Shown: piece after piece, positions 25,400 through 52,773 of the stretch | Layout: each line of letters opens with the position of its first letter | Position numbering within the stretch: the stretch's first letter is position 1 | Assembly: GCA_011109175.1 (NCBI GenBank) | Contig: RDEW01000019.1 | Location: 427,570 to 491,569 of the forward strand | Reading direction: 5' to 3' | DNA from: Dicyema japonicum | Lineage: Eukaryota > Dicyemida > Rhombozoa > Dicyemidae | Length of the DNA: 64,000 nt | Position numbers and translations under genes: made by a program | Notes under the pieces: generated by a model | Seen by the model: the letters and a program-made list of their open reading frames with translations, nothing else | Databases searched by the model: none | Told to the model about the DNA's origin: nothing

Positions 25400-25758
25400 T
25401 CAGAATATAATTACTTTTGTAGAGATCCGGATTGGTAGAGATCTGATTGGGACAGTTATCTCAAATTGTGTATTTTGTCAGGTATTTTTTTGCTTTTTAT
25501 TTCCACAGGCAAAGAAATTACTGAACACGTAACACCGATCTTAGCTATAAGGACAAGGGATCTCCATATTATGATTTAATAGACCTAAGGAGAGAGTCAG
25601 AAATGAATGATGGATATTCTTTGGTATGATTTCTAATATTAAAGATTTTGGTTGTTTGGACTCCTTCTCTAATTGTTATGAATGAGCTGGCTAAAAATAA
25701 ACGAACAGTGAAATTGTATCGCTCTTTCAAAATATGTTTTTTTGTGTCTTTAATGTGA
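25400..25758 (+). CDS. Unknown host-type gene with four tiny introns (3' part)
   Basis: Removing four GT-AG segments leaves one open frame: introns 25435-25455 (21 nt), 25482-25508 (27 nt, ending TTTCCACAG), 25529-25551 (23 nt) and 25624-25644 (21 nt). Exons are 25400-25434, 25456-25481, 25509-25528, 25552-25623 and 25645-25758 (stop TGA). The predicted protein includes YNYFCRDPDC, YLKLCILSGKEITEH, DKGSPYYDLIDLRRESEM and a hydrophobic segment near ILVVWTPSLIVM, so a membrane span is possible. I do not recognise the family. The start codon and upstream exons are not resolved. Every intron keeps the frame, which would be unlikely by chance. The genomic sequence unspliced has stops in all frames. 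Confidence 0.6.
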
Positions 25759-26087
25759 ATTTTTCAATTTTTTAATGTACAATTTATGCATAAAATACTC
25801 CATAAAACATGTCCCAAGTAGGCCACGAGTCCCCTTGATTCAAGGTAAATTGTAAGTTATAATTTTGTGATTAATCAAAGTATTAAACGTTGGATGTCTT
25901 CGGAATCCTCGTCTAGAGGTTGTTTTGGAAAGTATTCTACGCTTCATTCATCAACAAAAAAATACCTTTCTATATTTTTGTGGTTGTGGAGGGTAATAGA
26001 GAATACAAAGCTGAACAATTAACCGAAGAATATCGGAAGAGGAACTAATAATAGCGAGAAACACAGCTTTCGAAAACCTGTTGAATT

Positions 26088-26294
26088 TTGCCGAAATTGG
26101 GAATTAACGACTCAGTCATTGATATCGGAGATGAAGTGATTTCAAGGTTGCGTACAAATACTAATTTTAGACAAGAAAATGATACAAATAACCCCCTGTA
26201 TACATTATATGATGGACTGGATTATGATAAATACTGCGTGGTTGAACAAGATGGACTCAAAATGGGAGAACATAAAGAAAGAGTTAAACTATAA
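26088..26294 (+). CDS. Hypothetical 68-codon open frame
   Basis: A frame from ATG to TAA encodes an acidic, soluble-looking peptide (IDIGDEVISRL, NNPLYTLYDGLDYDKYC, EHKERVKL). Upstream sequence at 25990-26060 also looks coding in the same frame (EYKAEQLTEEYRKR), broken by three stops. GT-AG alternatives of 19-22 nt can be drawn, so a tiny-intron gene is plausible but not fixed. I do not recognise the family. Confidence 0.35.
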   Translation: MPKLGINDSVIDIGDEVISRLRTNTNFRQENDTNNPLYTLYDGLDYDKYCVVEQDGLKMGEHKERVKL

Positions 26295-26439
26295 TTCTAA
26301 ATATAACTTAAAAAAATTATTTTTTTTTCATTTGTGATATTTGGACTAATATTAATTTTATTTAAGAACAGCGAGAAGTAGCTAAAGAAGAAATAATTTT
26401 TTAATCTGCCCAACCTATTTTTAAATAGATTTTGATAAT

Positions 26440-27277
26440 AGCATTATTCCTCTTGAAAAACAGTCTCAACGTACAGAGGCTCATATGTCCTGAGGACTGC
26501 TGCCTATTTCACCCAGTGTGATTAACTCGAAAAGTATCTTCAACTTTCGGTTCGAGGATTACTCATGGAATTAAGCCACGCTGCCAGTGAGACTCTGAGC
26601 ACTTGGAATTCGAAACCCTGTGGACCTTTCTCTCCCTTCATACCTATCATCGCTAGTGGCCTGTAATTCCCATTTCAAGAGGATTTTACACTCTCTACCT
26701 GAATTCTCTATTGATAAGGAAGTAGGACATGCTCGTGAGGCCTGGAGCCGCACTTATTAGCTTTCCTTGCCTTCCTCGTTTTCTCAGCGGGGCTTGGAAA
26801 ATACTATATGCTGAAATTCTTTTGAAGATGTGCTAGTGACATCTAGCCAACACCGCCGGACACCCCTTCATGGTCGAACCTGTCGGTCTTTGCAGTCAGG
26901 ACTGGAAACGATCAGATGGGATGACAATCTTTCCTTTTGAAGCCGGGAAAACTCTTGTCTGGGACGTTATTTGCACCGACACATTTGTTTCTTGCAAACT
27001 ACTCCAGAGTGCCTCTGGAGCCTGTTCTGCCGCTGAGAAGGCCGAGAAGATGAAACGGGAAAAGTACGTGGTCTTATCCAAGAATTTTTTGTTTGCTCCA
27101 CTAAACGTTGAGACGTCTGGTTCCCTTGCGCCTGCGACGCTGGAATTTTTGAGTCGTCTAGGGAATCAAATCGCTACACGAACAGGGGACCCTCGTGAGC
27201 GCTGCTGGTTATTTGAGCGAATCTCGCTCGCCATCTTGAAAGGGAATAGCCACGCAGTCAGGGCAGCCGCTATATAA
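26440..27277 (+). mobile_element. R2-like REL-endonuclease LINE with internal deletion
   Basis: The first part (ALFLLKNSLNVQRL) is the segment after the RT palm, as at 14.3 kb. The text then jumps near 26860 from the region before WLN to the endonuclease, losing the CCHC and RH motifs. From 26870 an uninterrupted frame of 135 codons gives MVEPVGLCSQDWKRSDG, TIFPFEAGKTLVWDVICTD, CSAAEKAEKMKREKY, VETSGSLAP, FLSRLGNQIATRTGDPRER and a C-terminus ending RAAAI with stop TAA at 27275-27277. The first motif reads RSDG instead of RPDG. It is the best preserved C-terminus in the window. Confidence 0.87.
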
Positions 27278-28630
27278 CCGTTTACTCTTTTTTCTCTTTG
27301 TTTTTGATAAAATGAGAAAAAAATTAAGTTAGGTTGGTTTTCTGAGGAATATAAAATCTGAATTTATTTTATATTTTTTTCTGAAAATCAAAAAAAAAGG
27401 TTATACATAATATTTTTGTGTTATTTAGAATTTAATTAAAAACAAAAATTTTTAAAAATTAATTTATTCGCGGATTAATTAATAGGACTGTGACATTTAA
27501 TAATTTTACTGTTGGTGAGGAATTGATAACTTAATCTGGTCGAGTGACCTTGATTACTGCCATAAGTAACAAAACGTGATTTTACATGTACCTCGCTCGT
27601 ATGATCTTGGCTACCAATCCCTTTCACCCTCCACGGCTCGATGCTAGATTCAGATGAACTTCATCGATTTCTCTATCAGAGTGAACTTGATAGAAAACAC
27701 CTAAGATAACCTTTACAGCTTTTCCCACCAGAGTAAGCTTAATATAATAAAATCTATTTTCAATAAGTTTTTTGTGGCAAATAACTCAAAAATAAGCAAA
27801 ATTGCATTTTTGCGACGAGTAATAAAAAATCGACACATTTTTATTAAAAAATAAATTTTACATTACCGGTCATTTATAAAATGCATTGTTTTTGACTACA
27901 ATAATACTTGAACAACTAAGTTTGTTAAGAGTTATAATAATGCTAGACACCAGACTACAAAAAATCCTTTTGTCCGTTTTGGGGACAATATATCCGCGTA
28001 CTATCTCAGATGATAAAAATGAGTTACTTTGTTGTGTGGCGACTACGACTTATTTTTGTGTGTAACAAAGCAAATCAACGGAAATATGACGAAAATGATA
28101 TTAAAATAAATAATTATGTCGTTTTGGTATACCTTATAAATTTATTAAACTTGTAGAACAATGATGCATAAATGATGGTCTGATATCGTGAATGCCGTGT
28201 AGTTTTAGAAAATGGAGAAAACACACAATGCATGGAACGTATAAATGCCGAAATTATTGAAAGAATACATATTACCAAACTAATTCTAATAAATTATTTT
28301 TATACTTGTATCGGTTGATAACTTTAAACGCATTATTTTTGACGTTAAATAAATCAATTTAAGAAAGTAGATAAAAATTTTTAATTTGCTCAAAACAACA
28401 ACTTAAATAATATTATTAAAGCACTGAACATAGAATCATATAGAATATAATCCTATACGTTCCATGCTTAGGTGATCATAGTTATTAGCCTTTTCCAGCC
28501 TCCTTTATTCGACGCCAAGCTGCTCACAACATTTAGTCTTCGCCGTCCCTTCTTGATTTCTTTACCAGATCGTCGTTAAATATTTTGAAAGAGAATCATA
28601 ATTTATTCCGTTATCTGCGGAAAATTATAG
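27278..28630. other. AT-rich region without a recognisable gene
   Basis: Long A/T runs and no coding signal. It ends at the gap before the SPAG1-like locus, whose upstream part may lie in the gap. Confidence 0.45.
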
Positions 28631-28945
28631 NNNNNNNNNNNNNNNNNNNNNNNNNNNNNNNNNNNNNNNNNNNNNNNNNNNNNNNNNNNNNNNNNNNNNN
28701 NNNNNNNNNNNNNNNNNNNNNNNNNNNNNNNNNNNNNNNNNNNNNNNNNNNNNNNNNNNNNNNNNNNNNNNNNNNNNNNNNNNNNNNNNNNNNNNNNNNN
28801 NNNNNNNNNNNNNNNNNNNNNNNNNNNNNNNNNNNNNNNNNNNNNNNNNNNNNNNNNNNNNNNNNNNNNNNNNNNNNNNNNNNNNNNNNNNNNNNNNNNN
28901 NNNNNNNNNNNNNNNNNNNNNNNNNNNNNNNNNNNNNNNNNNNNN
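28631..28945. other. Assembly gap (315 N)
   Basis: This is a run of N. Frames that span it are artefacts. Confidence 1.
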
Positions 28946-28985
28946 GGCTGCTAACAAAATTAAATATTAAAACCTTAGCAACGTA

Positions 28986-29620
28986 ATGTTTGACGACATT
29001 CTGATTGAACATTTTGACTTTAAATATGTAGAAAGCTGTGGTGACCTCAAAGAATTGGAAAAAATATATAAAATACTAAAGTACGTTCAAGTCTCAACCA
29101 AAATCCCCCGCTCAAGGATATTACGTAGCTCTTGAAAACTGCTGCGAAAAAAAAATAAAACTTTTGAACCCCAAAAGGCAGTTTCCTTGTTTATTGCTTA
29201 GCAAAATTTTAATAAGGGACAAACCCCCAGGAAACAGATGCTCACTGGATAAATCGGAGTTACAAGAAATAAATGATGAATTTGAGGTTACAGTGTAATT
29301 TATCTTAGCTGAGGAAACGAGACAGGGAAAGTAGAGCTTCCGAGTATTCGGGTCCAATCAGAGAATCTGTAAAAGTTGTGAGAATAATTAGAAAAAATTC
29401 GATTTATCAAAGAAGGAGACGAGATCGTCAAAGTTAAAGTTCAATACAAAGTCACTTACAAGATCACAAATAGTAGGGAAAGCACAGGATTACAAAGAAA
29501 AGGGAAATAGGGTTAAAATGTGGCCGAATCAGAGGCATATCGATGTGAAGAATGGGAGGAGGCGTTGGAGTATTACTCACTAAGCTTGTCCACCAATTGG
29601 ACTGAGGCTGCAGCCAACAG
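28986..29620 (+). pseudogene. SPAG1-like gene fragment with tiny introns, truncated after the first TPR
   Basis: SPAG1 is a TPR cochaperone for cytoplasmic assembly of dynein arms and other complexes. The start MFDDILIEHFDFKYVESCGD, then KELEKIYKILK, matches the conserved SPAG1 N-terminus. GYYVALENCCEKKIKLLNP and RDKPPGN follow, and then KAQDYKEKGNRAYRCEEWEE and ALEYYSLSLS, the first TPR helix pair. Continuity needs GT-AG introns at 29287-29308 (22 nt), 29369-29391 (23 nt) and 29512-29534 (23 nt), each of which restores the frame. Near 29091-29116 a 26 nt candidate intron leaves a one-base mismatch. Similarity stops near AAANRRN at about 29615, exactly where an RBM28-like segment begins on the other strand. 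It is therefore a truncated relic or a misjoin. Confidence 0.72.
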
Positions 29621-30780
29621 AAGAAACGGAGAGCGGATAGCGCAAAAGAATGTTCATGGAATTCCACAAAAGCATACCACATTGACTTTTCATCCTCCTT
29701 TTTCATGATACACCACACTGAACTGACATTAACAAATACCGTCAACTAAAATTTCATGCACTTCTTGACGTTCTTCAAAATCGAAAACCTCAACTTCTTA
29801 ATGGTTATATGACCTCCCAAATTGTGAAAGGTCAGTCTCGTAGGGGATACATAGTGCTTGTCGTCCATTAATTTCACCCTCTGTGTAGCTTCCAACTGAA
29901 ATGGTGGGGAAAAATTATTTTGTGCCACTTATTTATATCCCGATCAGGAACACTCTCAGTCATTTTAGTCCCTTAGTCCTAGTCTGATCACCCCCAGTTA
30001 ACTTAAAACTAACATCCTTCCCTCACTAAGAACAGATTCCTTTTATCCAATCTCTCAGTCTCCATTGATTTCTTGCCAAAATCTTCCAATTTGTCTCTGT
30101 TAACAGCCAAATCCGCGAAATTAACACGATCCTCGAACGACAACTGGCCAGAGTGAAGAATTACATGGGTACCGACCTTTGCCAAGTATAAACACTTTTC
30201 AACAGCTTCTTTCCGCCTAAATTTCAGAATGCAGTTCCTTGGCATGACCCATCCTTTACGACAAACACCACGTCCCCCATATATTAGACTAATACCTCTT
30301 TCAACTTCTCCTCATTCACGTCAAATCCCAAGTTTCTGCAATAATAACATCACAGATCTCAGAAACACAGTCCATTCTCTCCATGTGGGTACTTGCTCAC
30401 TTTAGGGACTGATTCGTCCACAGAACAGACAGAATTCTCTTCGGACAGCGAATTATTAGTGTTCTTGTACTTATCTTGAAGCACTGAATAATCAACAGCC
30501 ACAACTCTCCCAGGAAACAGTCACGTTAATCATGTATCCATTATTTTTCGACCATTTAGTCTTTCAATGGCCAGTTCAGCCTCATTGGGGTCCGTGAACT
30601 GCAAAAAACCAAACCCAGCAGATGTGGTACCTTAAAGTAAGAACTCCATGATACCATTCCGCGGAATTACAATCTTCACAATATCCCCGCACGTGCTAAA
30701 CACTTTGGAGAGGTCCTTTACACTTATTGAAAACGGAAGAATATGAATTATGAGTCTGAAACTCTTCAGACACCTTAAGT
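29610..30780 (-). pseudogene. RBM28/Nop4-like RNA-binding protein fragment with tiny introns
   Basis: RBM28/Nop4 proteins carry several RRM domains and act in nucleolar ribosome biogenesis. Reading the minus strand: an RRM with FRLIIHILPFSIS, KDLSKVFSTCGDIVKI, AGFGFLQF and AIERLNGRKI, then RVVAVDYSVLQDKYK, which matches the RBM28 second RRM and its tail. Next is TVFLRNLGFDVNEEKLKEV, then LKFRRKEAVEKCLYLA, DLAVNRDKL and DKRNLFLVREG (third RRM and tail). After that come KHYVSPTRLTFHNL and MWYAFVEFHEHSFALSALR (fourth RRM). Candidate introns are 30631-30654 (24 nt), 30336-30357 (22 nt, AT-AG ends) and 29746-29769 (24 nt). A stop near 30283, stops near 30520 and a one-base loss near 30230 remain. 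The first RRM and the C-terminus are missing. Confidence 0.75.
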
Positions 30781-31244
30781 TGCTGTACAATCAGTATTTA
30801 GAGTATAAGTCATCCTTCATTCCGTAAATCAATAATATTCCAGCGTACCCCCAGTTACCCGTGACATATTCTGTATCGCGGATAATATGTCCTTAAAGGG
30901 GAAAAGGGGACATGACCACTGTTGAAGATCACTTTGCACTCTTCAAAGATCTCCAGATTGTAGATTCTCGATATTATCAAATATTTCCTAGCAGTTGCAG
31001 AGGAACTCGAAGGGAATTTAAGTCTGAATGACTTCCAGCAGGAGAAATTGTGACTTTTTTCCGTCAATCTCTCGCATGTGCTTATACATTCAAGACCGAC
31101 AAGTACCAAGTGAGCATTGGCCCAGGACCCTGTTGAAGATGGTGTATCGGTTTCTAAATTTAACTCACCGTTTCTGGACCCTAAAAAATGAGCCATCAAA
31201 ATGGAAAAAGAATATAATTGGAAAAATTTAAAAATAGAAATCAT
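30781..31244 (-). other. Unassigned open frame upstream of the RBM28-like locus
   Basis: A 129-codon frame (30855-31244) has no RRM signature and no family I recognise. It lies where the first RRM of RBM28 would be expected. It may contain unresolved tiny introns or be unrelated. Confidence 0.3.
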
Positions 31245-31639
31245 TTCTTTGGTAACTAAAAAGTTTTTTATGCTAACTAAAAGTTTCTTTTAAAAGAGTT
31301 AGAGTGATACACCACGCAGAGTTCAAGATTGTCTTGATTGTACTTACTTGGGATGGCCTAGTGACTACACATTCGTGAAGTTTGCCAGATCTTTGAATAT
31401 AAGAGAAAGAACGTATGCTAACGAATAAGAATGGCTCTAACAGAATCAATGGAACCTTTATATGGACCCGAAATGGAACCGTATTGAATGATCATAACAA
31501 AATTTAACAACTTTTAATATAAAAACGATTTAAAAAAATCAAAATCTTCTTTACTATCAGACAAATAAACTGTATTTAAAGACTAATTAATTCTTTTAAT
31601 TCTTGATTTTGAAACTTTTTTTGATTCGTCTGTGGAAAC
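31245..31639. other. Unassigned spacer
   Basis: I see nothing recognisable. Confidence 0.4.
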
Positions 31640-32740
31640 TCCCTTAACATAAAATGTAAATGTTCCTCTATAACAACATAATGTTCCTTTCAAAAAAACT
31701 GTCCAAGGCATGTTTTTTTGTTTTCAGGTTGTTATCTAAATCTGATTTGATGAAAACAGATCGCTATTTTAACATGATTTGTTTGAAAATTTTTATTCGC
31801 GTTTTCTTTTACTTTTCTTTTATAATTTTCAAAATGTTCTGATGTTTGATGATGTAATTGGATTTCAGAAAGAGAACAAGTTTCTTGAATTTCATCATCT
31901 GAAAAATGTTTGTTCTTTGGGCTGGTAATTCGATCACTTTATTATCAGACCCAGAAACAATATTAAATCCCGAAGTTCCAAATAATAGTCTAAAAATAAA
32001 TTCATAAAGGTAACTTAAAAGGTGACTTTCCAGTAGCGCATGAATAGAAATGTTATATTTATAAACAGTAGTTTTCAATATGTCAATCCAATTATTAGAT
32101 TTAGATTGAAATAGAGTTTTCGCTAACCAACGCTTTAGCGTTTGAATATAGCGTTCCACCTGCCCTTGTGATTGAGGGTGTCTTGGTCTACCATGAATTG
32201 CCGTTATCCCCCAATCACATAATAATAGTGAAACTTCAGAGTTACAAAACTCTTTTCCATTGTCCGTGTGCAATGTTTCTAGTGGCCCAACTGATAAAAA
32301 CATGTCTTCAAAAGAATTTTTTATATTTTGAGAAGTTTTACTAATTAAAGGAAATGACAAGCGAATTTTGAGTAACAGTCAATTATAATAAGAATCAATT
32401 TATATTCTTTATTATAGGAAGAATATTTACGAAGATCTATACAATCAGCCATAAATCTTTCGAATTTATGTGAAACGGTATTCATTTGAATATCTTCACA
32501 AGTCTTTAGACTGTTGAAATGATTGCAGGAATCACAAGTAGATACAAAATGGCGAATAATTTGTTGATTGATGCCAATGTACTTTTCGCAAAATAATTGC
32601 ACATCTTGGAAACACCAGGATGTCCAATAGAATGTTCCTTAGCTAAAATTGAGTTAATTCTAGCTTCTTGAAATGAACAAATAACAGTACGAAGATTTCC
32701 ATTAAATCCATAAAATAATTATCCATTCAACAGTTTTAAA
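31640..32740 (-). mobile_element. GIN/Gypsy-type integrase (KRBA2/SCAND3-like), frameshifted
   Basis: This is a DDE integrase, which inserts element DNA into the genome. In order: zinc-binding N-terminus (AKEHSIGHPGVSKMCNYF, then STCDSCN, giving an HHCC set), MADCIDLRKYSSYNKEYKL (first Asp), IIIDCYSKFACHF, LETLHTDNGKEFCNSE (second Asp), HGRPRHPQSQGQVERYIQTL (Glu) and SNNWIDILKT. All three catalytic acids are present. A one-base frame break near 32350 divides the protein after CHF. The C-terminal part below 31900 has decayed spacing. No RT, protease or LTR was found nearby, so it may be a GIN-type or Gypsy remnant. A shorter copy is at 22950-23170. Confidence 0.85.
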
Positions 32741-33097
32741 TTCTGACATCTGCGTAATGTCCGCTTTTGATTTTCATTAAATCCATCAGAAAAGTGTTTA
32801 TACTCGAGCTTCGACCTTTTCTATTTACGACCCTTTTCACGCTTAATTGCTTTATTGACTCAAAATAAAATTTTTTGTATTTTGAGGTAACAAGGGACAG
32901 ATCTTTCGAAGCAAAACTTAGTGGTTGTTAATGTTTTCAAGTGATAAATTTGTCTTATCAACCCTGACAGTATCAACAGCCCGGACGCTATCATATACGA
33001 CAATTATTATATTGAGCGACTTCAATGGCCAGGTATTTTACCTTACAAAATACGATCTCGAAACAATCAGTCCCACGAGATCCTAGGCGATATTAAT
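32741..33097. other. Unassigned spacer
   Basis: Sequence between the integrase and repeat copy 2. Nothing recognisable. Confidence 0.4.
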
Positions 33098-33430
33098 GAT
33101 CTTCGTCGTCATAAACTGAATATCAGCCAAATTTGTTGAAGAGTGTTTTTTAACACGTGTAACGCACCAAACCATGTTTCCACCATTATAGAATGGGAAT
33201 ATTGTTATTCTTTGGGGCGTTGCCATCGCAAAGAAGAAACTAGTTGTGGCCAGCATAGAAAATGCATTTTTAATGTCAAGTTGCGACATCATGTAGAAGA
33301 ACAGCCATAAATCAGATTAAAAGATGATAATCATCGATCCACCGTCCTCGAGGAAATTTTCATTTAACACAAAGTTAAGGTCAAGACGGAGCGAGGCAGC
33401 TATTCTCACTGCCTCGTAGTCAGAAGGTTG
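33098..33430 (-). mobile_element. R2-like REL-endonuclease LINE relic inside repeat copy 2
   Basis: The minus strand reads DYEAVRIAASLRLDLNF, then SQLDIKNAFSMLATTS, FFFAMATPQRITIFPF, YNGGNMVWCVT and STNLADIQF. Relative to the 14.3 kb copy these are the pre-CCHC block, RHxxLNDIIKxA, RPDGxTIFPF and GKxLVWDVTC. The DIKNAF text could be mistaken for RT motif A, but the flanking order shows that it is the LNDIIKNA segment. The CCHC itself has decayed. Confidence 0.7.
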
Positions 33431-34347
33431 CTAATTTTATCACATGGATAAACATTCAAATAAGCATTTGTTGAATAATTTCTAGTCATCTTGAAGCAGA
33501 CCTTCTAGCATCATATTGCTCTCAAGAAACTCTTTCTTTTACAAAAACACATCGTAATGCGATTTCAGATTAATTCGGTCATTTAGATCATTAAGGAAAT
33601 ATCCTCCTTAACGTCCACAGATCCAGAAATAAGAGTGAGGGGTAAGGTCAGTATAAACCATGGCATCCACATTTGGTTGCGAATCATAGTAAGGATACTA
33701 ATAGCATATATAGTCATCAAATATAGTTAAAATTACTTTAACGGTTGACCTAATTTTACTGTCAATGAGAAATATGACCTATTTTTACTTTAAATAGAAA
33801 AGAACATCGGATGTTGAAAATCTTTTGGTCCTGATAGATCAATCTGTAGCCAAAATCGCACAGAAAAATAATTTTGTCATCAAGCGATCACTTTTAATAT
33901 TTCACATAAAATCAATTCGAGAGAGCGAATGTTGGTCATTCGTTACTTAGAACAATATCATCTATTTGATTCTAATGGAGGCAAAAGATTCTCCCTTCAT
34001 ACTCAGACTAACTACTTCATACTGCTTTGTGTTAACTTTACGTATAATCCTCCAAAATTAGACCAACTAAATTACCTTGCAGTACTCGTCTGAAAAAATA
34101 ATTTCAATTGCCCTGCAGTACTCTTGTCTTGAAAAAATTAGATATCATCATACTTCAAAACCAAAATCCAGGTCATCTGCATATTTAATTCTTAGATAGA
34201 AGTAGGACAATTTTTAGCTCTCAGATTACGAAGAGCAGCTTCCAGATAGACAACAAGAAGATTGGTTATTGTGAGTCACCTTCTGAAGTGTCAATGTGTG
34301 TAGTCTCTTTCAGATTCACTTAAAATTTGATTTTCGCGCAAATTGAC

Positions 34348-34495
34348 CTGTAATTAAACATTATTCAAAAGGTATTAAACTTTTGACACAATTTCTAGAC
34401 ATTTTGATAAAGCTATTAAACATTGTGGCAAAGTTATTAGACATTTTTGACAAATTTATTAAATTTTATGGTAAAATTATTAAACAAATCGGAAA
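34348..34495. repeat. Degenerate tandem array, second copy
   Basis: This is the counterpart of 7943-8085, with the same unit type and order. Confidence 0.6.
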
Positions 34496-35690
34496 ACCAT
34501 GTTAATTGTGTAAATTTAATTAAATTATTTTTTAATTTTATTTATTTAACCCAACACTTTATTTAATAAAATTAAAATTAATTATGACGACTGTAAATCA
34601 TGTAATAATTTTAATTTCTTGTGGTTACTAGTATATTCATCATTTTGGTATTTAATCCTTTAGATGTTTAATTTCATCATCTTATACCTTCCATTTGGCA
34701 TTTTGACACAGAAAAATTGTCAAGAAATAAATCAGGTGCAATCTCTGTATTATATATTAATTATTAAGATATTTGATTAATTGTACATTTTCTGGCCTAC
34801 AAGTTGATTCTAAAGTAATAGATTTACTAATTCAATACATCACATTTGAACATGGTTTCAATTTTTCTATTATACGATCGAAAGTGGCGTATTTGTATTA
34901 AATATTACTTATTATAGTTACTGTTCGGAAGAAAGTTTAAAATATGTAACCAATAATACTTTTCCATCTACTATTTATCACTTGTTATATATATTATTAA
35001 ATTAATAGGTATTTAAAACGATGCAATTCCCTCTTATACATCGCAATTGATTTTGCAGAAGATTTATCAGTACTTACAATATGTAAATTTTTTTAATTAA
35101 TGTAGTTTCTTTCCACAGAGAATAGAAGTTATTCAAGAATTTAGAGTTGGTTCCAATATGCTGAATTAAATAAGTATTTTTAATAATAATTAGTGTGACT
35201 GTTTGCAGGGATTCATTCGGTGATGCAGAGGCGTATGATATTATATTTATCATAGGTATGCAGTAGATATACATGATCAAACATGATTCTCCAAACTAAT
35301 TACTTGTATAGGTTAGAAAGTAATAAATTTAGAGCAAACAGCAAGCAGACAAGTGAAACATGTAATTAATAATGTTATTTCAGACTGCAGTGCCATTGCG
35401 AACAAGTACAATGTACTTGGCTTTTGCGGAGTTACTAACATTTTACTAACTTAATTGGTTCTTTTATCGGGAATAAAAATTGATGTTAATTAATTCAAAT
35501 TTATTATGACTTAAATAATTTCCTGGTTGGCCAACTGAATCACACATCTTTACTTTTGACTCGGAAAGAATAATTTTATTTTAAAAAAACGAGAAGGAAA
35601 TGAATCGATTATGATTGGTTTTAAGAACGGATAGGCTTCCTTAGATTTATGAATGACGTGAGCATTATCCCAATTAATTTATTTAGTTTT

Positions 35691-40464: not shown

Positions 40465-40885
40465 AATTAGTCAGGAAGATTCTACACTGCACTACCCGAA
40501 TTCTCAATTGACCAAAACATAATCCACGTACGAGTAGCCTGGAATGCCAACAACCTCCCCTGCCTACTTCACAAGACTGCCAGCGAATTCTGTACAATTT
40601 ATTGTGCTGGAAATCATTTGGACTCCTACTGGAAATCGGCCAATCAGCACCGAGGCGTTTGTTTCCCCTGAAAGCGGAGTTTGGCTAAACGCTATCCCCA
40701 ATGGAGTTCTGGACACATTAGGTTATGAGAAGTGACGGGAAACGACCGGACGGGATAACCAATATGAATATTTTTATTATGTTTCTTTATTTTGATTATT
40801 ACAGATGGCTTATTGGGCGCATTTCCTTAAAAATCATCAGGGGAAACGCGTTTTCAATTCTAAGAGCGATAAATATTTACTGAAA
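40465..40885 (+). mobile_element. R2-like REL-LINE, double internal deletion
   Basis: 40470-40720 follows 14617-14880 closely at nucleotide level (including 'ttattgtgctggaaatcatttggactcctactgg', interrupted here). It then jumps to 'gaagtgacgggaaacgaccgg', which corresponds to about 15107. After AT-rich sequence the C-terminus LIGRISLKIIRGNAFSILRA ends with a stop at about 40880 and resembles the 24.5 kb subfamily. The CCHC and most of the endonuclease are deleted. Confidence 0.8.
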
Positions 40886-43800: not shown

Positions 43801-44123
43801 TAAGTCGGCAACTTCTTTAGTAATCTACAATCCATAAATGCAAACTTGTCCTAACTGACTAAGGAAATCCCGTTTCGGGTAAAGACGGCTACTTTCTTTC
43901 CTTTATGACCGTCATGGACTATTATGTCTACACACTCAAATTACAGACACCTACCTAATGACTTTCCCCAATTACCTAATGTATACTCAAGACTATTAAT
44001 TTTAACAATTATCACATTGAAACTGACAATTCTAATTGTAAGTGAAAAACCAAAGTCGATGTTTCTAAGTTGTTTCTTTGAATATGGAAAACATATTTGT
44101 ACTTAATATTATTCTAATTTTTT
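40886..44123. other. Region without a recognisable gene, a few weak frames
   Basis: Frames at 40995-41210 (-, 71 codons) and 41534-41761 (+, 75 codons) look moderately coding but match nothing. At about 42650-42774 (+) a reading RLKVVLDTGDQLLISFG contains the DTG triad of retroviral-type aspartic proteases. It is too short to call. Confidence 0.35.
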
Positions 44124-44354
44124 TTATAAAAGACAATTATTTGACACAGAAACAAATGATAATTGAGGAAGCCTGCTGCGTGGATCGCGAACGAATTCTC
44201 TCGGAGTATGGTCATTCAAATCTTTTGTCTCATCGAGAACCATTCTAGTTGATCTCTTTTTTCTGGAAAGCATTCCTTCGAGCTCGCGCAAAATTCTAAT
44301 TAGAAAAAAATCGAATTCCACAGATAAGTTTATTGTTTTCGACATACTCATCAT
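44124..44354 (-). CDS. Hypothetical 76-codon open frame
   Basis: A charged peptide (RILRELEGMLSRKKRST, LDETKDLNDHTPREF) lies just beyond the 3' end of the adjacent LINE on the same strand. I do not recognise it. It may be host sequence at the insertion site or an unrelated relic. Confidence 0.3.
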   Translation of the reverse strand: MMSMSKTINLSVEFDFFLIRILRELEGMLSRKKRSTRMVLDETKDLNDHTPREFVRDPRSRLPQLSFVSVSNNCLL

Positions 44355-44374
44355 TGTATTTGTTTCTGCTGGGA

Positions 44375-44901
44375 CACAACTGGGAAAAGCTTCTTTAAAT
44401 TAAATTTATTGAACCAGAAAACCACCGTCATATTTCTAAAATAAACAAAATTCAGGTGATCCCTGCCTCTCTCAACAGTCTTTGCATCTTTTCTAAGAGT
44501 TTCGACTGCGTTTTTGCGCATTTCCGACATGAACGGGGTCCGCATACTCGAGTCGCCTCTATCATATTTTCAAGGTTACTGGGAAGAATTTCCACATGGA
44601 AAGATTTCCTTAGTAGGTTTGCTGTCTTCACTTGAATGTTGCAGATCTTGTCTAAATTCGTTGCGGCAAGGTTAGATCCCCAGACATTACATGCGTATGT
44701 TATTGGACAGTCGATGAAATGTTTGTATATGAATCCAGTCCACTTAGATTTTTTTTGTCTCCTAGGTTTTTTCAAGAACGCCTTCAGGAAGTTGATTTTC
44801 TTCGTACAAGTCAATAACATATTTTCGACATGTTTTGTAAAAGTTAAGAAGGTGTCAAAGGTAACTCTTAGGATTTTCTGGAATTTGTTTTGCGGGATCA
44901 A
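44375..44901 (-). mobile_element. Jockey/CR1/Ingi-type LINE C-terminus and 3' UTR
   Basis: The 150-codon frame contains KILRVTFDTFLTFTKHVE (family LGVTFDxxLTFxxH), KKINFLKAFL, YKHFIDCPITYACNVWGSN, the end of the RT thumb/connection, and a short basic cysteine-containing C-terminus that ends MQRLLREAGIT. The 3' UTR that follows ('gggatcacctgaattttg' to 'ggttcaataaatttaattt') is also found at the 3' ends of the SINE-like repeats at 54.0 and 60.7 kb. No RT palm is present, so the copy is 5'-truncated. Its upstream neighbour is the R2/R4-like element. Confidence 0.83.
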
Positions 44902-44914
44902 ACCAGCGTGTCAA

Positions 44915-47134
44915 ATTCGTATGGTTCAATATTAATTAATCCTATATAATAGTTAGGGACATTGCGTATTCATTTATTGCGCGAAATAAGTTCACAATTT
45001 AACTTTGTTTTTGAAAGCATGGTCATTCTCTTCTTAACATTTTCAAGTATGGACTCCATAACTTTGCTTTTAAGAACATTACTTCCCTCATCTTCAAAAA
45101 CACACAAATATCGATATCTACTGACTCCTTCCAGAGTCTCACAACATGATAACGATTAACATTAGAAAGTGACTTTTCCGAATTCATCTCCAAGCCGGCA
45201 ACATAAAAGAAATCGCGAACAACTTTCATCATTTTAATAACAGTATCTTCTTTTAGCCCAAATATCTTTAGGTCATCAATGAATAACAAATGATTTGTAG
45301 AATAAGTCAGTGTATTAGGATCCTCCTGATTAATTTGGAGTCTTGGGAACATAAAGTTAAGGGTCCTGCTCAAGGGTTCCATTACCATAACAAATAGTTG
45401 AGGGGATAATGAATCTCCTTGCAAAATTCCCCGTCCCAGTTTTACAGAACCAATTCTTCTTCCATCTAAGTGGAGATTTACAGTCCACTTCTTGACTATG
45501 GTCTTTACAAAGTTTACAATCCAACGGGGTATTCCTGAGCAGTCCAATACATGAAAATAAAAATTCATGGTCAACAGAATCAAAGGCCTTCTTCACATCC
45601 ACCCAAGCAGAATAAAGGGCGTTTCCATACTCCTTATTTAAGCATTGATTAATAAAGGCCTGTTCCTTAGCGCCCTGACAATGTTTCTTCGTTCCCAGCT
45701 GATTGTCAGATAATAGCCCAAACTAATCCACAAAATCTGAGAGTTTGGAATTAACACATTTGGTAATAAGTTTATATAAAGTTGGCATAACACGTGATAG
45801 GACGTAAGTCATTAGGAGTTTCACAATCATCCTTTTTAGGAATTAAATAGGTTACTCCAGTATAAAACCAACTTTCAGGCATATATTCCCCATTAATAAT
45901 TCGGTTAATCTCAAGTACATAAAAAGCCATGTAAAGATTACATTTTCTTAATAAAGAAGTTATATTGAGCCATCGCATCCACACGCCTTCCAATCAGGGA
46001 GCCATTTAATAACATCCAGGATAAACTCATTTGTGAACTCTGGCAACATGCCTTCAATACCAGTATTTACTTTACCCACACTGTCATATGGCACGTTCAT
46101 CTCTTTTCTTTTTAGACCACACTTTTTCCCAAACGCAACCTCCCCCTTTTGGGCCCTTTTGTATCCATAGGCACAAAGAACATCCATAACCTTTTGTTTT
46201 TCATACACAGGGAGAGCTTGTCTGGAAAAGCTATTGACAAGTTCTAGTTCTCCCATCAGCTTTGAGTTTTTCTTTTAAGTGTTCTCCAACCACGTACTTT
46301 GCGGTTTAACCTTCGCAGTTAAAGTCATATAAGCACACTGTGCAGCATATAGAATATCAGTAATTTGATTGATATCTTGAGGCGGATTATCTTTCGTAAT
46401 ATAATATATTGCAGAATTTAGTCCCGACAAAACATTAACTCTGACATACTTTCTCTGAATTTTGGGTGTTGGTTTTCGAGTATCCCTCGGAATTGACTTG
46501 ATTTTCTCAATTTGTACTTTTAGTTCCTCAAGGCAATTTCTGAAGGTGGAAATTTCCACATTAGTATTATTTTGCACTTTGAAACAGTCGCCTCCTTTTA
46601 CATTGTTATTCCGATTTTCAGGTTTCAGCATCTTTTTTAGTTGACATAGACTGGAACTCTTGGAGTACTTTTCATTGAACTTTTTGAGTACGAGGTTCCA
46701 GCCACCTCTAGGTATCCTTCCAAATCTTTGTTTCGTGGCAAGAAAAAATCTGAGATACCCACTCAGCTTCAGAGACACAGTGGACCTCTTCAATAATGGC
46801 AGATAATGAATGCAAGTTGGTTTTGGCACAATATTCCCAGCGATGTTGATATTAGTTCTTGTGACATTATCCAGCCCCACAGACGACGGTCCTGCTTCTA
46901 CTAAACTATCTTCTTTATTTGATTTTGCCGGAAGGCCCATAGGATTCGATTTCTCGTATGATTAGAAACGGACATGTTAACACCACAACAAATTAATAAA
47001 TTATTTGGAACAATATTCAATTGTTTTTTATTTGTGGATATATTTATTCGTGAAGAGTGTTTCCCTGTGTTTGTTCACAAAAAATTGTTTCTTGCAGGTT
47101 ACGGGTAACTCACATAATTTACACAAAAGCATTC
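44915..47134 (-). mobile_element. R2/R4-like LINE: zinc finger, Myb-like domain and RT, degenerate
   Basis: From the 5' side: a CxxC zinc finger (LLCKLCELPVTCKKQF then NKHRETLF) at about 47055-47135; a Myb-like DNA-binding helix (RGGWNLVLKKFNEKYSKSSS) at about 46710-46640; the RT approach WFYTGVTYLIPKKDD and RPITCYANF; motif A WVDVKKAFDSVDHEF; motif B GILQGDSLSPQLF; motif C FIDDLKIF; GLEMNSEKS; and NYYIGLINIEPYEF near 44960. The frame from 46940 to 45960 is kept across one stop at 46275. Frame shifts follow near 45990, 45750-45600 and 45583. The catalytic DD is intact. No C-terminal endonuclease is visible before the next element begins at about 44910. Confidence 0.85.
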
Positions 47135-47645
47135 NGGAAGTATCACGCCGTGTTACAAAGGAACAGTCTCGGAGAAGTGTATAAGGACAGATTTCTGATC
47201 CCTCAAGCGTGGCTTCCCATGCAATTTGATTCGTCCCGCTTTTCCTTACTTTGGAATTCAAGTCTCCAGTTATAAAGAGCATGTATGAGCTAGACAGGGA
47301 AGAGTAAGCAGATTATAAGGACGAGTAGAAATTTTCAAATTTTACTGTGGTCGATGTATATCGATGGAGTAATATTACGGTTGGTTCCGTGGGGTAGTTA
47401 AAGATGGCAATCCTGTCGCGTCCATGCATATAGCGAACTCCATCCAATCATTTCGGCAGCCTGACGACGATAGGAGCAGTCGATACACGTTCACAACTTT
47501 AGTCTCCTGGAGACAGCATACAAATATTCCGAATTGTTGGAGGTCAGGAAAAAGTGTTGTCTTTTTACGTATGATGTGACTCCTCTCACATTTAATGATC
47601 CAATGTAAAATAGGGAAGATTGAGTGCATGAAAAAGACATTTGTG
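47135..47645 (-). mobile_element. AP-endonuclease fragment of another LINE
   Basis: The minus strand shows IGSLNVRGV, then FGIFVCCLQETKVV (QETK catalytic block), a long decayed middle with FAICMDATGLPSLTTP, and FITGDLNSKVRK (family GDxNAKVG). These are ordered blocks of the EEP endonuclease that nicks target DNA in RTE/CR1-type LINEs. The SDH end is missing. The boundary with the R2/R4-like element coincides with the single N at 47135, so the junction should be treated with care. Confidence 0.7.
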
Positions 47646-48074
47646 CAAGAGAGACACGTCACCACCAAAACCAAATGATGATATCTTCAGTAACAAAGCC
47701 ATTTATTGCATCCATCCTTGAAATCCATTCAAAAAGTGAATTATCAAGTTGATGATATTTACCACCTGGCTGTCTAGACATGTAAATCAGTGTTCATATT
47801 TTTCCCATTTTTGAGGATTTTTAAGAATTTCTAAAAAAAAACAAGTAAAGATTTTTTTGGTCGAGAATGGCGAAAAGGATGGCTGTAAAGCATGGCTCAA
47901 GTGAACCCCTTTTAGGGCTACGCGAAGAAGCTTTTAACTAACTAAGAATTTTTATTTAGAAGCTTTGAAGCTGATAATTTCGCTTCAATCATTGATCAGG
48001 AAATGGGAGAATACCAAACTGGATGACATGTTTGATTATCACATTATGGATATGTTAATACTTAATAGTTACCC
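47646..48074. other. Unassigned spacer
   Basis: I see nothing recognisable. Confidence 0.4.
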
Positions 48075-48957
48075 TTAGGTCAGCATTGTTAGAACCTCTT
48101 TGTGGTCTAAAAACCAGAGATGTATCTTCCCCATTAGATAATTTGACAAGAGGGAAAAGCTGGAGCCCTCTTCCAACATGTTTCCATAATTTTATCTCTT
48201 CTGAGAGAATTGAATGCATTCGTTATGTCCAACTTGATTCCAATGCATTCTTTTGCCACATTTTTATGTGTGAAGAAACGCCTTGCTGTATGAACCGTAG
48301 CCTCACATCCGTGCTGGATACTAACACCCATTTGTTTAGGAAAAAACTCTTTTCCAAGTTGTAGGCTCAACAGGGTTGATTCTAGCTTTGCTGCAAGTCT
48401 TCTGAAATAGTTTCCGACCGCAATGGGGCGGATTCCTCCATTGAGTTTTTTGAAAGCAAGTAGCCTTGCGGAGAAGAGCAATTCTATGGCATACTCTGAG
48501 ATGTCTCCGTTAACCATTTTTCTGATTAGACCCGTAATTGATTTGACAAGACAGCGTCCAGCATCCAAGGTGTAAGAAGACGTAACGTCCTTAATATGGC
48601 CAGGACGTAACCCTTCCAAGCCTCCATTGCTGCTAGCGGCAAATGAAGTTATTCGGTGGCGCACTTCAGATTCTGTAATGATAATCTCCGAGGATCCTAC
48701 GAGATTCAAAAACTTTTCATAGTCAGTCGGTGCTTCAGTATTAAGGTATTTAGGACCTCGGGGGTACAAGACAATACTGTATCATCGGACGTGACAACCC
48801 GTACGGCTGCCCGCACGTCGCCCTCCAGAAGTTTCCGGTTTACTCTCTCCTTTAGTTTATTTGGAGCATCTTTTGTGTATGCTCCTATGGTTTTGAGCTC
48901 ATTGACAATAAATGGCTGTTCAAGTATTGCGTGTATGTTATGATAGCTAAAATTCAT
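48075..48957 (-). mobile_element. R2-like LINE, RT N-terminal half (NAFNS type)
   Basis: This is the RT part of the same kind of element whose REL endonuclease pieces are scattered over the window. It shows RKLLEGDVRAAVRVVTSDD, NGGLEGLRPGHIKDVTS, GGIRPIAVGNYFRRLAAK, GVSIQHGCEATVHTARRF, IGIKLDITNAFNSLRRDKI (motif A) and, in another frame near 48100, LSNGEDTSLVFRPQRGSNN (approach to motif B). Frame breaks lie near 48750 and 48150. Motifs B and C are missing. The 5' end at about 48957 is a truncation or an insertion boundary. Confidence 0.85.
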
Positions 48958-49379
48958 TATGTTTCGATTCAGTTTCCCGGATTAGTTGAGTATTGAATTT
49001 GTTTCATATTACTCATGAATGCGGTCCCATAAATACTGTGAGCTATCCTTTACGATTATGCTAGGACACGAGGGAGGAACACTGGCATATATGAAATCAC
49101 TGTTGGAACGCATCGTGATCACTTTATAATTAGTTAGGTTTTACTGATGTTTTGAGTTGTTAAATAAATATTATTCCCCATATTTTTAATATTTAATAGA
49201 AAAATCTTCATGGTTGAGTAAAGATATACAAATTACAGCATTTCTATGTACTTTTTAGTGAACATGGATACAAAGCCATCCTACTTATATAACATCAGGC
49301 GAAATTACTAGGATATATCTGGGAAACAGATCGAATGTTTGCAAGGCAGACTCTTCCTTTCTGGCCTTAAAAATTAAAC
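48958..49379. other. Unassigned spacer
   Basis: I see nothing recognisable. Confidence 0.4.
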
Positions 49380-49580
49380 GACCAGATTTAAATTTCCGTC
49401 TAAAGTTTTCGAAGTAAGATCCTTCCTAGGAACGGAGTCGAAAGTTTTGCTGATGTCAACTGTGGAAAATAGTCTACTGCGTCTAGACTTGTGAGAAAGC
49501 CAATGCGAGTAAATTCTCTCAGATAGAAAACTCGTAGTCGACCAATCATTTTTTGTTTAAAATTTTAGGGATAATAAGTC
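49380..49580 (-). mobile_element. LINE RT motif A fragment
   Basis: The minus strand reads LFSTVDISKTFDSVPRKDL, the first catalytic aspartate block of a non-LTR RT, with LREFTRIGFL upstream in a neighbouring frame. It is about 65 codons long, broken by frame shifts. The clade cannot be fixed. It is the fifth minus-strand LINE piece in a row. Confidence 0.6.
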
Positions 49581-50168
49581 TATTGTTGAGAACAATCTAT
49601 TTTTAAGCCCAATGCTGTAGATCCCAGTGCCAGGCCGGCACGAAAAATAACCATTTGCTCTCCCACACTCCACTGGATGGGTGTCCATAACTGCAAGATG
49701 GACGTCTTTTAACCTTTATATTGATTCCTGGTGGACTCTGTTTTTTTAGACGTAGAAATTAAATGCACTTAATTATTTGTTTACCATAACTTCTTTCTAT
49801 GTGTATCTGGGTTTAATAAATAAATAAATGATATTATTAATAAATTGACCACTCAATATGAATTAATTTTACCGCCAATTAATATAATTCTAAATTATAA
49901 AAATAACAACATTGTAATGTGTTTGAAACTTTTCAGCATAATAATGGATCTCTTTCATATTGGATAGTAAACAGATATTCTCTATTTTCATAACAATGTT
50001 ATGAGAAATAAACGTGTCAATCCAATTCATGTGCTATTATAAAAATAAGGATTAACGATATATCAATGCAATATTAGCGCATTCCCACACAGCCCAGAGC
50101 CAAATTCGTTCATCTGTGATCGCATTCAATAAATTTATCGTTGGCTTCATTGACCTTAATATAGAAAA
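49581..50168. other. AT-rich spacer downstream of the leucine-rich gene
   Basis: I see nothing recognisable. It could contain the 3' UTR of the gene at 50169-52160. Confidence 0.4.
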
Positions 50169-52160
50169 TTAAAAATAATACATATCGAAATCAAAGTCGT
50201 ACTCAAAATCATGATATTTAATAAACTGAAATATTTTTTCTAGAATGGGTTCGTATGGATTCAAATCGCTAAAATCTGAATTCATAAAAATAGGGAAAAT
50301 ATCATTTGGATCAATTAATATCTGGCATAGACAACTTAAAATAGAATAGCCGAAAAATTAGGATAGTTAGAGTAGTCCATATTTCTTTTCAATAAAACAA
50401 AAATTTTACAATATAAAATTTATTAGACCATAGCTGATATTAAATATCTGGTGTTTAAGCTATAGCTATATTCTCGACAATTTTAATTACGGCAACTAAT
50501 ATATATTTGAAATGACATTGAGATACATTATATCTTTCGAAAAAATAATAAATATAATGAATTCCATTATAATCGAGAAACAAATTCATATTCTTTTCAT
50601 TTTCGTCTAAATAAAATATATTTTAAATACTATAAGAAAATTCAACAAAAAAAATTTGCCTGTAATACTTTGATCTCCTGTTTTAAGATGTTCAAGACAT
50701 AACTAAAATTATATTGTCATATGAACTTCGACAAGTCTTTCAGAATAGGCAATATAGGCTAGAAGGTCTGTACTCTTATTTTTTATGATTAATTTAATTT
50801 CATGTGAATTAAAGGTATACCAGCATTTAAGATTTATCAATATAATTGATAGTGCAGGTAACTAAAATAAGAATTAACTAACAAAAGATATTTTCTGCGG
50901 TTTAAATTTTAGTACATGCTTAATACAATTGTATATATCAGATATCAATATATTGTATAATTCATTGTCATTGGATATAATATCAAGAAAAACATCTAAA
51001 ATAAAGCTATGGATGATTTTTACTAATACCAACTAGTACCATATGAAATAGAATTTTGTCTGATTATTTTGAATATAATAATCTTGAAAAATCTATTAAC
51101 ATACAGGTACCGATAAATCAACTAAATTTATATTTTAAAATACTTTCAACAATGGTTTTACTAAATTATTTCCAATTTCCATTTCACTATGAATAATCTT
51201 TCGAATAGCATAGGACAAAAGGTTGAATTTATTATGCAAGTGTTGAGTAAACGAGGCTAAGTTATTTATAATTGATTGCAGATCAATCTATATTCTTTTA
51301 TAAAATATACAGAATTGCTTATACTTTTACTGAAATCTAAAACTTTGCTATGGTGAAATTTTACAAATCCTTTTTTTCTTATTCGTCTAAATTTATTAAA
51401 ATCATAACTTTGATAACTTTTTTAATACTTTTCCTTTAATAAAATATCCAGTTAAATTTACGCAAGTTAGATTATTGGCTTTTTTGAATATAGAAAAGAA
51501 ATTAAAGTCATATCCTTTCAAATTCCTATCACTTGTATGAATGAAATATCTAAATTTAATGTAAATAAACCTTAAAGAGTCTGGATTGTTAAAGCTTTCT
51601 GTAAATTCCTCAAAATCAGTAATTAAGACATTGTGAAAATTTATGCGTTCCAGTTTTTCAATTATTTTTAGTGTATTTCTATAAATAGTCGTACCGCTAT
51701 TGAGTCCAAGTAGGTTGAGAATCCTTATTTTTCTAAAACCAGTCATAAATAGCTGATGTAGCAAATCTGGGTCATCATACTCCAATAGTGTAAATGATTT
51801 GATCTCATTCGGAAAAAATGGAAGAAAAAGATTCTTTTCTGATGAAATAATCCTTCTTATTGTAATATTTGATAAGTTTGGATAAAATTGAATCATCTTA
51901 ACAACGTCCATAACTTCAACATCTTCACGAGTCAATTCAAGGCAAAAAATGTCTTTCTGTACTTCTTCTGGAATCCTATAAAAATTTGAAAATGTAAAAG
52001 ATTGATCTTTCTCAGCACGTGAATTCAAATATTTAAGTTCATTGAGGATTCGATTGGAAAACATTTTTTTAGATTTGTTGTTTAATTTTATATATTTTTG
52101 TCCATTAAAGTGTCTTCGAATATTATTAATGCAAAATGCATATAATGATGGTGTATCCAT
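50169..52160 (-). CDS. Leucine-rich protein of about 592 residues with nine tiny introns
   Basis: The first exon (52160-51409) starts with ATG and encodes MDTPSLYAFCINNIRRHF and repeated Leu/Ile blocks (NLSNITIRRI, FRKIRILNLLGL, LERINFHNVLI, NLTCVNLTGYF) that resemble leucine-rich-repeat strands. GT-AG introns at 51387-51408, 51288-51310, 51122-51143, 51007-51029, 50862-50882, 50703-50726, 50607-50630, 50460-50490 and 50385-50409 (22, 23, 22, 23, 21, 24, 24, 31 and 25 nt) each remove an in-frame stop. Later exons read LVELCLEHLKTGD, NMNLFLDYNGIHY and MNSDFSDLNPYEPIL, ending at TAA 50169-50171. Two single T additions, in T runs at about 50649-50656 and 50354, are needed to keep the frame. No signal peptide or membrane span is seen. 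The function is unknown; an F-box/LRR or other solenoid scaffold role is only a guess. Confidence 0.75.
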
Positions 52161-52427
52161 TTAACAACTTGAATATATTTTGATGACCTTAATATAAATT
52201 TTATTATTTTATATTTGAATTTCATAAAATTTTATTATTTTTTATGATCAATGATACATTTTTCGAATTTCTCAAAGAAAGCATCCATAAGGAAATTAAA
52301 CACCTACCGAACATTAGGACTAGTTGATGTAATTTCTTTTGCAACTTCATTCTCAAAATTCAGATCAATTCATTATATTTCTTGAATAGGTAGCATGTAC
52401 ATAAACGGATGGTATCCGATGATTGAT

Positions 52428-52773
52428 TTACATAGAAATTACGAGATTATATATAAGATAGACATGTGCCTCAGTATCCTATGTAAGTTATACATTCGTA
52501 TGAATAGATTTCATCCTTTTTGTGTCAGTCAGCATAATTTCGAACTCATTTTCAATACAACGTATTGAATTAAGGACTCGTTGCTCCTTCATCAGATAAT
52601 GATCCATAAACCTTTTGAAAAAAATCTTCACAAGAAGCGTGCTCATAGAGGCTTTTAGCTACGAAGAGCATTTTAAATCCTCGTGAGGAGGACTGTGAGC
52701 TTTGGGTGGACATGAGGTTATTCCATACCATATAAGTTTTATCTTTGAAGTATGAATTATCTCCATTCGACAT
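52428..52773 (-). CDS. Small unknown protein (about 98 residues) with one or two tiny introns
   Basis: Exon 1 (52773-52612) starts with MSNGDNSYFKDKTYMVWNN. A 25 nt GT-AG intron (52587-52611) joins it in frame to KEQRVLNSIRCIENEFE and LTDTKRMKSIH. A second possible intron (52470-52493, 24 nt) leads to a short last exon with stop at 52428-52430. Without it the stop is at 52488-52490. The protein is hydrophilic and Ser/Gln-rich near residues 22-31. I do not recognise it. It lies about 410 bp upstream of the leucine-rich gene on the same strand. Confidence 0.55.

Follow-up and report, generated by a model that had tools for sequence, protein, structure and literature searches.

Evidence for spliceosomal introns of 21-28 nucleotides in the genome of the dicyemid Dicyema japonicum

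We analyzed a stretch of 64,000 nucleotides (nt) of the Dicyema japonicum genome (assembly GCA_011109175.1, contig RDEW01000019.1, positions 427,570 to 491,569 of the forward strand), hereafter the window, in which an earlier note had proposed spliceosomal introns of only about 21-27 nt at five loci. Together with a wider sample of the same genome, our data make it very likely that the ordinary spliceosomal introns of this dicyemid are reduced to 21-28 nt and that the major (U2-type) spliceosome excises them. For the genome, and within the window for the best locus, the proposal was borne out by homology-anchored introns of 21-28 nt, an excess of GT-AG segments at 21-26 nt, genes for spliceosomal small nuclear RNAs and the presence of U2AF65; the lengths, the GT-AG ends, the positions conserved between paralogs, the canonical segments of U2 and U6 and the U2AF65 exons are all read directly from the sequence. 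Tiny introns are already known from dicyemids, which are parasites of octopus kidneys, with published averages of about 25-27 nt. The present set supports, on long contigs, splicing near the lower intron size limit in a multicellular animal, and it is usable, although small, for training gene finders.

Introns anchored by homology and their lengths

Our sample of 314 kilobases (kb) comprised the window and 25 stretches of 10 kb picked by place, two of which flank the window. Nine gene models in this sample, namely NHE (locus L004), PRCP (L013), TTLL (L008), MetAP2 (L015), ALDH2 (L006), PRP18 (L009), a C1GALT1-like gene (L016), a second PRCP (L021) and BCAT (L025), could be anchored, and all nine read through only after removal of tiny introns. 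We counted 44 of their 57 introns, dropping 13 outside the aligned parts (two in NHE, five in TTLL, three in PRP18 and one each in MetAP2, ALDH2 and C1GALT1). TTLL was anchored by Pfam only and the second PRCP by alignment to the first; the introns of ALDH2 and MetAP2 were set by eye and then checked by alignment, while further spliced models, as well as one more 5' intron in PRP18, were unanchored and left out of the 44. The counted introns measure 21-28 nt, with a mean of 23.9 and a standard deviation of 1.7 (two of 21 nt, nine of 22, ten of 23, six of 24, seven of 25, eight of 26 and one each of 27 and 28); 43 have GT-AG ends, one has GC-AG and none has AT-AG.

The alignments across these junctions were close. 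The ALDH2 piece of 440 residues matched PDB entry 5l13, a mitochondrial aldehyde dehydrogenase, with E 5.8e-194, 423 residues being aligned without a gap over ten introns of 21-28 nt. For MetAP2, a first model, partly mis-spliced, matched the human protein with 325 bits; after five introns were re-placed the match rose by 114 to 439 bits (E 1.1e-130, the model carrying an X at one frame break), leaving one 3-residue gap away from all five junctions. NHE, PRCP and BCAT matched PDB chains at 9.4e-100, 7.6e-94 and 4.3e-55, with small gaps in the alignments. The two PRCP paralogs (L013:6182-7795(-) and L021:7296-8861(+)) are identical at 183 of 457 residues (40%) and have seven introns each, six of which lie at the identical column and phase; the seventh has the same phase but is displaced by 4 columns next to a gap of 4 residues. 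Lengths differ in six of the seven pairs, and the end of the fifth intron of the first paralog is shifted by 3 nt in another model. In their GT-AG or GC-AG ends, their in-frame joining of conserved coding sequence and the positions kept between paralogs, these introns have the features of the U2 type. Both PRCP genes are Pro-X carboxypeptidase-like; vitellogenic carboxypeptidase is named among the expanded gene clusters of D. japonicum (PMC6736024).

A count of GT-AG lengths over the 314 kb showed an excess at 21-26 nt. Every segment was counted that links two frames, each open over 120 nt or more, at a point where reading on without splicing meets a stop within 60 nt; the expectation for each dinucleotide pair was the product of its margins. 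Observed and expected numbers were 44 vs. 23.8 at 21 nt, 69 vs. 50.7 at 22, 65 vs. 52.8 at 23, 37 vs. 25.9 at 24, 54 vs. 49.4 at 25 and 64 vs. 52.3 at 26, or 333 vs. 254.9 for the pooled block (z 4.9). The ranges around it gave 341 vs. 374.1 at 12-20 nt (z -1.7), 151 vs. 155.8 at 27-30 nt (z -0.4) and 1376 vs. 1349.5 at 31-60 nt (z 0.7). Frame-joining AT-AG segments of 12-60 nt were in no clear excess in the 314 kb, the largest z being 1.9 at 35 nt.

These results bear on an alternative, that the joining of open frames is due to chance, AT-rich DNA with its many decayed transposons offering GT..AG pieces to choose from at will. Two observations speak for it: GT-AG is not superior to other pairs at the loci of the earlier note, and equally long chains can be built with control pairs. 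Set against these are the excess at 21-26 nt, the gapless ALDH2 alignment over ten introns, the 114 bits gained by MetAP2 on correct splicing and the intron positions conserved in paralogs. We therefore regard chance as very improbable, and for the genome as a whole it is already refuted, although the segments at 25.4 and 52.4 kb may be due to it.

Intron signals and the spliceosome

Beyond GT, the donors of the 44 introns have almost no consensus: the third base is T in 19, A in 15 (among them the GC donor), G in six and C in four, and positions +3 to +6 together hold 0.09 bits above intron composition. The interiors are 74.5% AT. Towards the 3' end, an A stands at position -7 in 23 of 44 introns vs. 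12.8 expected when only interior bases are shuffled (p 0.0002), and at -7 or -8 in 37 vs. 21.8 expected, a number reached in none of 5000 shuffles; with the last three bases set aside, the A closest to the 3' end falls at -7/-8 in 26 introns vs. about 8 in shuffles. The pattern was first spotted in the initial 25 introns. We postulate that an intron might be recognised by its narrow length window, its T-richness, a T/CAG end and the adenosine 7-8 nt from the 3' end. If this adenosine were the branch point, the lariat loop would be only about 15-21 nt long.

Components of the machinery were sought in the genome's contigs, which we searched for U2, U6, U12 and U6atac RNAs and for U2AF65. U2 RNA gave 25 matches, 22 of them over the cut-off, and U6 RNA gave ten, nine of them over it. 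The single U2 copy that we read carries GTAGTA and the single U6 copy ACAGAGA, segments named as conserved in a study of Stentor (PMC9505925). Exons of U2AF65 matched residues 308-352, 353-431 and 432-510 and are spaced by 22 and 23 nt; no match in the genome passed the whole-protein cut-off, as expected with exons scored separately. The PRP18 gene is present as well (L009). U2 genes over the cut-off occupy at least 22 places, six of which lie within about 111 kb of one contig (C115:851074-962467).

RNA genes of the minor spliceosome were found once each, both over the cut-off: U12 at G000:C68:163471-163599(-), with E 7.8e-16, and U6atac at G000:C34:237761-237858(-), with E 4.0e-6. The minor spliceosome is thus probably kept. 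A genome-wide search for the U12-type intron motif pair gave 39 matches vs. 37 in the reversed control, hence no excess; a few long T-rich matches to the U12 motif end in TTCCTTAAC. A survey of minor introns excluded introns under 30 base pairs (bp) (PMC10639083). We put forward tentatively, as a serious possibility, the composite proposal that the major spliceosome finds introns of 21-28 nt almost free of signals, that a fixed A 7-8 nt from the 3' end marks the branch and that the minor spliceosome is retained alongside. The A at -7/-8 would offer a testable rule for how an ordinary U2/U6 spliceosome works in a tiny space; it is this positional A, along with the RNA genes kept for a minor spliceosome, that deserves further attention.

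The inserts might instead be sequences eliminated at the DNA level, like the internal eliminated sequences of ciliates, or indels of pseudogenes. The boundary of the ciliate elements is TA, with which none of the 44 anchored inserts starts; 43 are GT-AG and one is GC-AG, their interiors are T-rich and the genome holds spliceosomal RNA genes. We give hardly any credence to elimination or indels on these grounds, although DNA elimination is reported from the somatic cells of dicyemids (PMC6543705) and an RBM28-like copy in the window, described below, has inserts without a GT start.

Splicing of tiny introns accords with what is known of dicyemids. In Dicyema acuticephalum, introns average 26.2 +/- 1.9 nt (n 16; PMC2222250), and a set of 41 dicyemid introns is given as 24.93 with a spread of 2.51, as we understand the columns, together with the weakest donor score known and no branch-point signature (PMC2483917). 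These published introns are likewise very short and uniform; the A at -7/-8 seen here is positional, could escape a search that looks for consensus sequence, and is a new detail relative to published dicyemid introns. The genome of a Dicyema sp. has a median intron of 27 bp, with about two thirds under 30 bp (PMC6543705). The annotation of D. japonicum has a mean intron of 38.2 bp (PMC6736024) vs. 23.9 nt for the short introns collected here, and the full distributions may agree.

Other lineages have tiny introns too. In Stentor coeruleus a branch A also lies near a fixed position with a weak branch consensus, but this ciliate has introns of only 15-16 nt and its A falls at one position in 90.9% vs. 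23 of 44 here (PMC9505925). Paramecium introns are 20-35 bp with a mean of 24.8 (PMC2222250). Both Paramecium and the Bigelowiella nucleomorph are unrelated lineages, in which the donors are largely GT(A) (PMC2483917), whereas here T, A, G or C follows GT. That our DNA might come from such a lineage, a ciliate or a chlorarachniophyte nucleomorph, is suggested by introns of 15-35 nt there (PMC2222250, PMC9505925), yet we judge it extremely unlikely: the genome is 64.67 megabases (Mb), TAA, TAG and TGA are all absent from the homology-anchored frames, and Stentor introns are only 15-16 nt long. In addition, the genome encodes a C1GALT1-like enzyme (3.6e-37; L016) and a Pax6-like gene (L031), with a paired domain recognized by PF00292 at 2.5e-26 and a homeodomain seen by eye. 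These two genes, like NHE, we take to be of animal type, and the Pax6-like and C1GALT1-like genes appear to point to an animal. The paired domain contains a 25-nt phase-0 intron, whose exact position, like the Pax6 identity, was judged by eye; intron a in the paired domain of Dicyema Pax6 is of the same phase 0 (PMC2222250).

The five loci of the window

The earlier note had argued that removing GT-AG segments restores long open frames at five loci. The segments exist, but restoration alone is weak proof, other dinucleotide pairs doing equally well. A maximum-open-frame program ranked GT-AG segments of 20-28 nt among 256 dinucleotide pairs at each locus: GT-AG was 9th at 50.1-52.2 kb(-), 9th at 29.55-30.85 kb(-), 15th at 28.95-29.72 kb(+), 86th(+) and 29th(-) at 25.3-25.85 kb, and tied first with other pairs (-) and 64th (+) at 52.4-52.8 kb. 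This test has little power in either direction, because real genes themselves rank from 2nd to 31st (PRCP 2nd, MetAP2 2nd, NHE 3rd, TTLL 3rd and ALDH2, with its indels, 31st). In a chain test over 264 kb, which allowed introns of 20-26 nt at a fixed penalty, the best GT-AG chain scored 1935 points and the best chains of nine control pairs 1745 to 2258, four of the nine exceeding GT-AG; judged by eye, the three longest of the GT-AG chains run through frames of reverse transcriptase. We rejected the frame-restoration score as sole proof for being non-specific, and segmentation by codon usage under a heavy intron penalty had no power. Restoring frames by eye is accordingly not proof of introns where control dinucleotides perform equally. 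Each candidate was also given an intron-like score, expressed as its percentile rank among the GT..AG segments of the window. Of the five loci, one is strong and two, the SPAG1-like and the RBM28-like, are partial; those at 25.4 and 52.4 kb do not rise above control.

The strong locus, at 50.6-52.16 kb, comprises:

50587..52160 (-), protein-coding gene belonging to an expanded family; 51402-52160 is the first exon, open for 252 residues, and short introns split the later ones
51387..51408 (-), 22-nt GT-AG intron, 99.2 percentile
51288..51310 (-), 23-nt GT-AG intron, 92.6 percentile
51122..51143 (-), 22-nt GT-AG intron, 98.5 percentile
51007..51029 (-), 23-nt GT-AG intron, 74.2 percentile
50862..50882 (-), 21-nt GT-AG intron, 99.7 percentile
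50703..50726 (-), 24-nt GT-AG intron, 95.2 percentile
50607..50630 (-), candidate 24-nt GT-AG intron, 98.5 percentile; a 1-nt frame change is required to reach the following open exon
50496..50526 (-), candidate 31-nt GT-AG intron, 93.8 percentile, without independent anchor
50155..50181 (-), candidate 27-nt GT-AG intron, without independent anchor

Nine introns in a row had been claimed here. Six hold in frame (22, 23, 22, 23, 21 and 24 nt) and a seventh requires the 1-nt change, the seven scoring at the 74th-99.7th percentile; the run of nine was not reproduced, nothing independent anchoring the candidates of 31 and 27 nt. A genome search with the spliced protein gave at least 93 match rows, a figure that includes the query gene and places with more than one row; many rows of the family are partial, with stops. 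In these relatives we took span minus coding length as extra nt. One relative, 73% identical over residues 1-466, exceeds its coding length by 138 nt, which fits six introns of 22-23 nt, and another, 81% identical over residues 1-357, by 66 nt, which fits three. Two relatives match residues 461/462-492 uninterrupted, and the seventh intron (50607..50630) is apparently not common to them. No homologue was found in the public protein set at E 0.001 among 7992 candidates scored, and there was no significant match in PDB (best E 0.16) or Pfam (best E 0.022). A ZYG11/ZER1-like identity is our guess, unsupported by matches; a single-sequence fold of the first exon had a mean predicted local distance difference test score (pLDDT) of 38.8 and was discarded.

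At the SPAG1-like locus, which adjoins a run of 315 N at 28631-28945, we recorded:

28960..29707 (+), SPAG1-like gene fragment, TPR match only E 0.085
29287..29308 (+), 22-nt GT-AG intron, 95.3 percentile
29369..29391 (+), 23-nt GT-AG intron, 88.2 percentile
29512..29534 (+), 23-nt GT-AG intron inside the TPR, 33.0 percentile
29091..29116 (+), weak candidate intron of 26 nt, 0.4 percentile; the frame also needs a 1-nt change

A SPAG1 anchor had been proposed. Introns of 22, 23 and 23 nt are usable, but the fourth is poor and does not restore the frame without that change. The resemblance to SPAG1 we presume from comparison by eye with the human sequence.

The RBM28-like locus on the opposite strand is more disrupted:

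29560..30830 (-), RBM28-like gene copy with RRMs, disrupted and multi-copy; RRM_1 6.4e-17 with stops read through, PDB RBM28 RRM 3.1e-9
30631..30654 (-), 24-nt GT-AG intron inside the first RRM, 80.9 percentile
30377..30400 (-), weak candidate intron of 24 nt, 7.5 percentile
30509..30538 (-), insert of about 30 nt in the coding frame without a GT start, by eye
30336..30357 (-), 22-nt AT..AG insert between VFL and RNLGFDV, by eye, with A at -7
30284..30286 (-), in-frame TAA in an RRM, by eye
C1:792286-793479, C1:2231519-2232726, C94:374779-375946 and C31:26373-27451, near-full RBM28-like copies

Similarity to the RRMs of RBM28 upholds the anchor proposed for this locus, and one 24-nt intron is plausible, but other disruptions, including a 1-nt frameshift seen by eye, are unexplained by short GT-AG introns, and near-full copies of the segment 29580-30820(-), 83-91% identical, occur at four other places. 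Such a copy number is unusual for a gene of this kind. Gene finders, it had been predicted, would wrongly call these loci pseudogenes; for the RBM28-like copy that call may be right, because of the unexplained disruptions and the multiple copies, and we take the copy most likely for a duplicate that is decaying or carries errors.

One may argue instead that the RBM28-like and SPAG1-like loci are intact, their breaks being assembly errors and non-canonical AT-AG introns. By eye, single-base indels relative to homologs also occur in conserved genes (one in MetAP2 and, apparently, two in ALDH2 and one in the Pax6-like gene). The D. japonicum assembly merged contigs from PacBio RS II and Illumina (PMC6736024), which is why residual errors are a simple explanation of frame breaks in good genes, real mutations also being possible. 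We considered that the base missing in the frameshifts was always G and rejected this, since the base is not determined and in the Pax6-like gene a base is added, not lost. The N run alongside and the A at -7 in the AT..AG insert are likewise in keeping with intact loci. These points are countered by the in-frame TAA and the two inserts without GT, by the want of a clear AT-AG excess at 12-60 nt and of any AT-AG end among the 44 anchored introns, and by copies at 83-91% identity, as expected for decaying duplicates. We thus consider intact loci unlikely, though with some claim to attention.

The two remaining loci comprise:

25435-25455, 25482-25508, 25529-25551 and 25624-25644 (+), four candidate introns in a short frame, at the 31, 98, 35 and 92 percentile
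52587..52611 (-), candidate 25-nt intron, 60.2 percentile

At 25.4-25.76 kb two of the four candidates are intron-like (98th and 92nd percentile) and two are not (31st and 35th), and the single candidate at 52.43-52.77 kb, at the 60th, does not exceed control. A Pfam search of the frames at 25.4 and 52.4 kb gave no significant match.

Several observations weigh against tiny spliceosomal introns as an account of all these data. Removal of the segments from RNA is what we infer from genomic DNA, and frame restoration at the five loci is no better than with control dinucleotides. Two of the RBM28-like inserts lack GT, and other relatives of the 50.6-52.16 kb gene leave 33, 42, 54 or 69 nt (alignment gaps uncounted), not all multiples of 22-24. 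The mean of the first 30 introns, 23.5 nt, is below that of D. acuticephalum (26.2 +/- 1.9; p 6e-5), though nearer to 24.93 (n 41). Single GT-AG lengths outside the block stand out as well, at 46 nt (68 vs. 49.4, z 2.6), 60 nt (55 vs. 41.9, z 2.0) and 48 nt (49 vs. 37.2, z 1.9), which may be chance or a second intron size class. Finally, in the 14 introns added last, A stands at -7/-8 in ten vs. 7.1 expected (p 0.07), and at -7 alone in six vs. 4.2, which is not significant. A T-run of fixed length before AG could partly yield the branch-A signal, and for this reason we treat the adenosine as a putative branch point.

The assembly and other features of the window

The assembly consists of 191 contigs, six of 1.1-2.5 Mb and others down to 13 kb; in the 314-kb sample the GC content is 36.4% and N make up 11003 of 314000 positions (3.5%). 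The published D. japonicum genome, with 67.5 Mb in 377 scaffolds, 36.7% GC, 4.1% gaps and an N50 (the weighted median scaffold length) of 1.0 Mb (PMC6736024), is alike in size, GC and gap rate. Repeats make up about half of a dicyemid genome, LINE copies being numerous. The window appears to hold decayed retroelements. Matches to an integrase core, a reverse transcriptase and an endonuclease lie in broken frames, for example at 31809-32378, 48134-48781 and 57377-57784. A tRNA scan of the window in the bacterial setting found none, and at 17067-17180 (+) there is a 5S rRNA match of 40.1 bits, slightly above the gathering score of 38.

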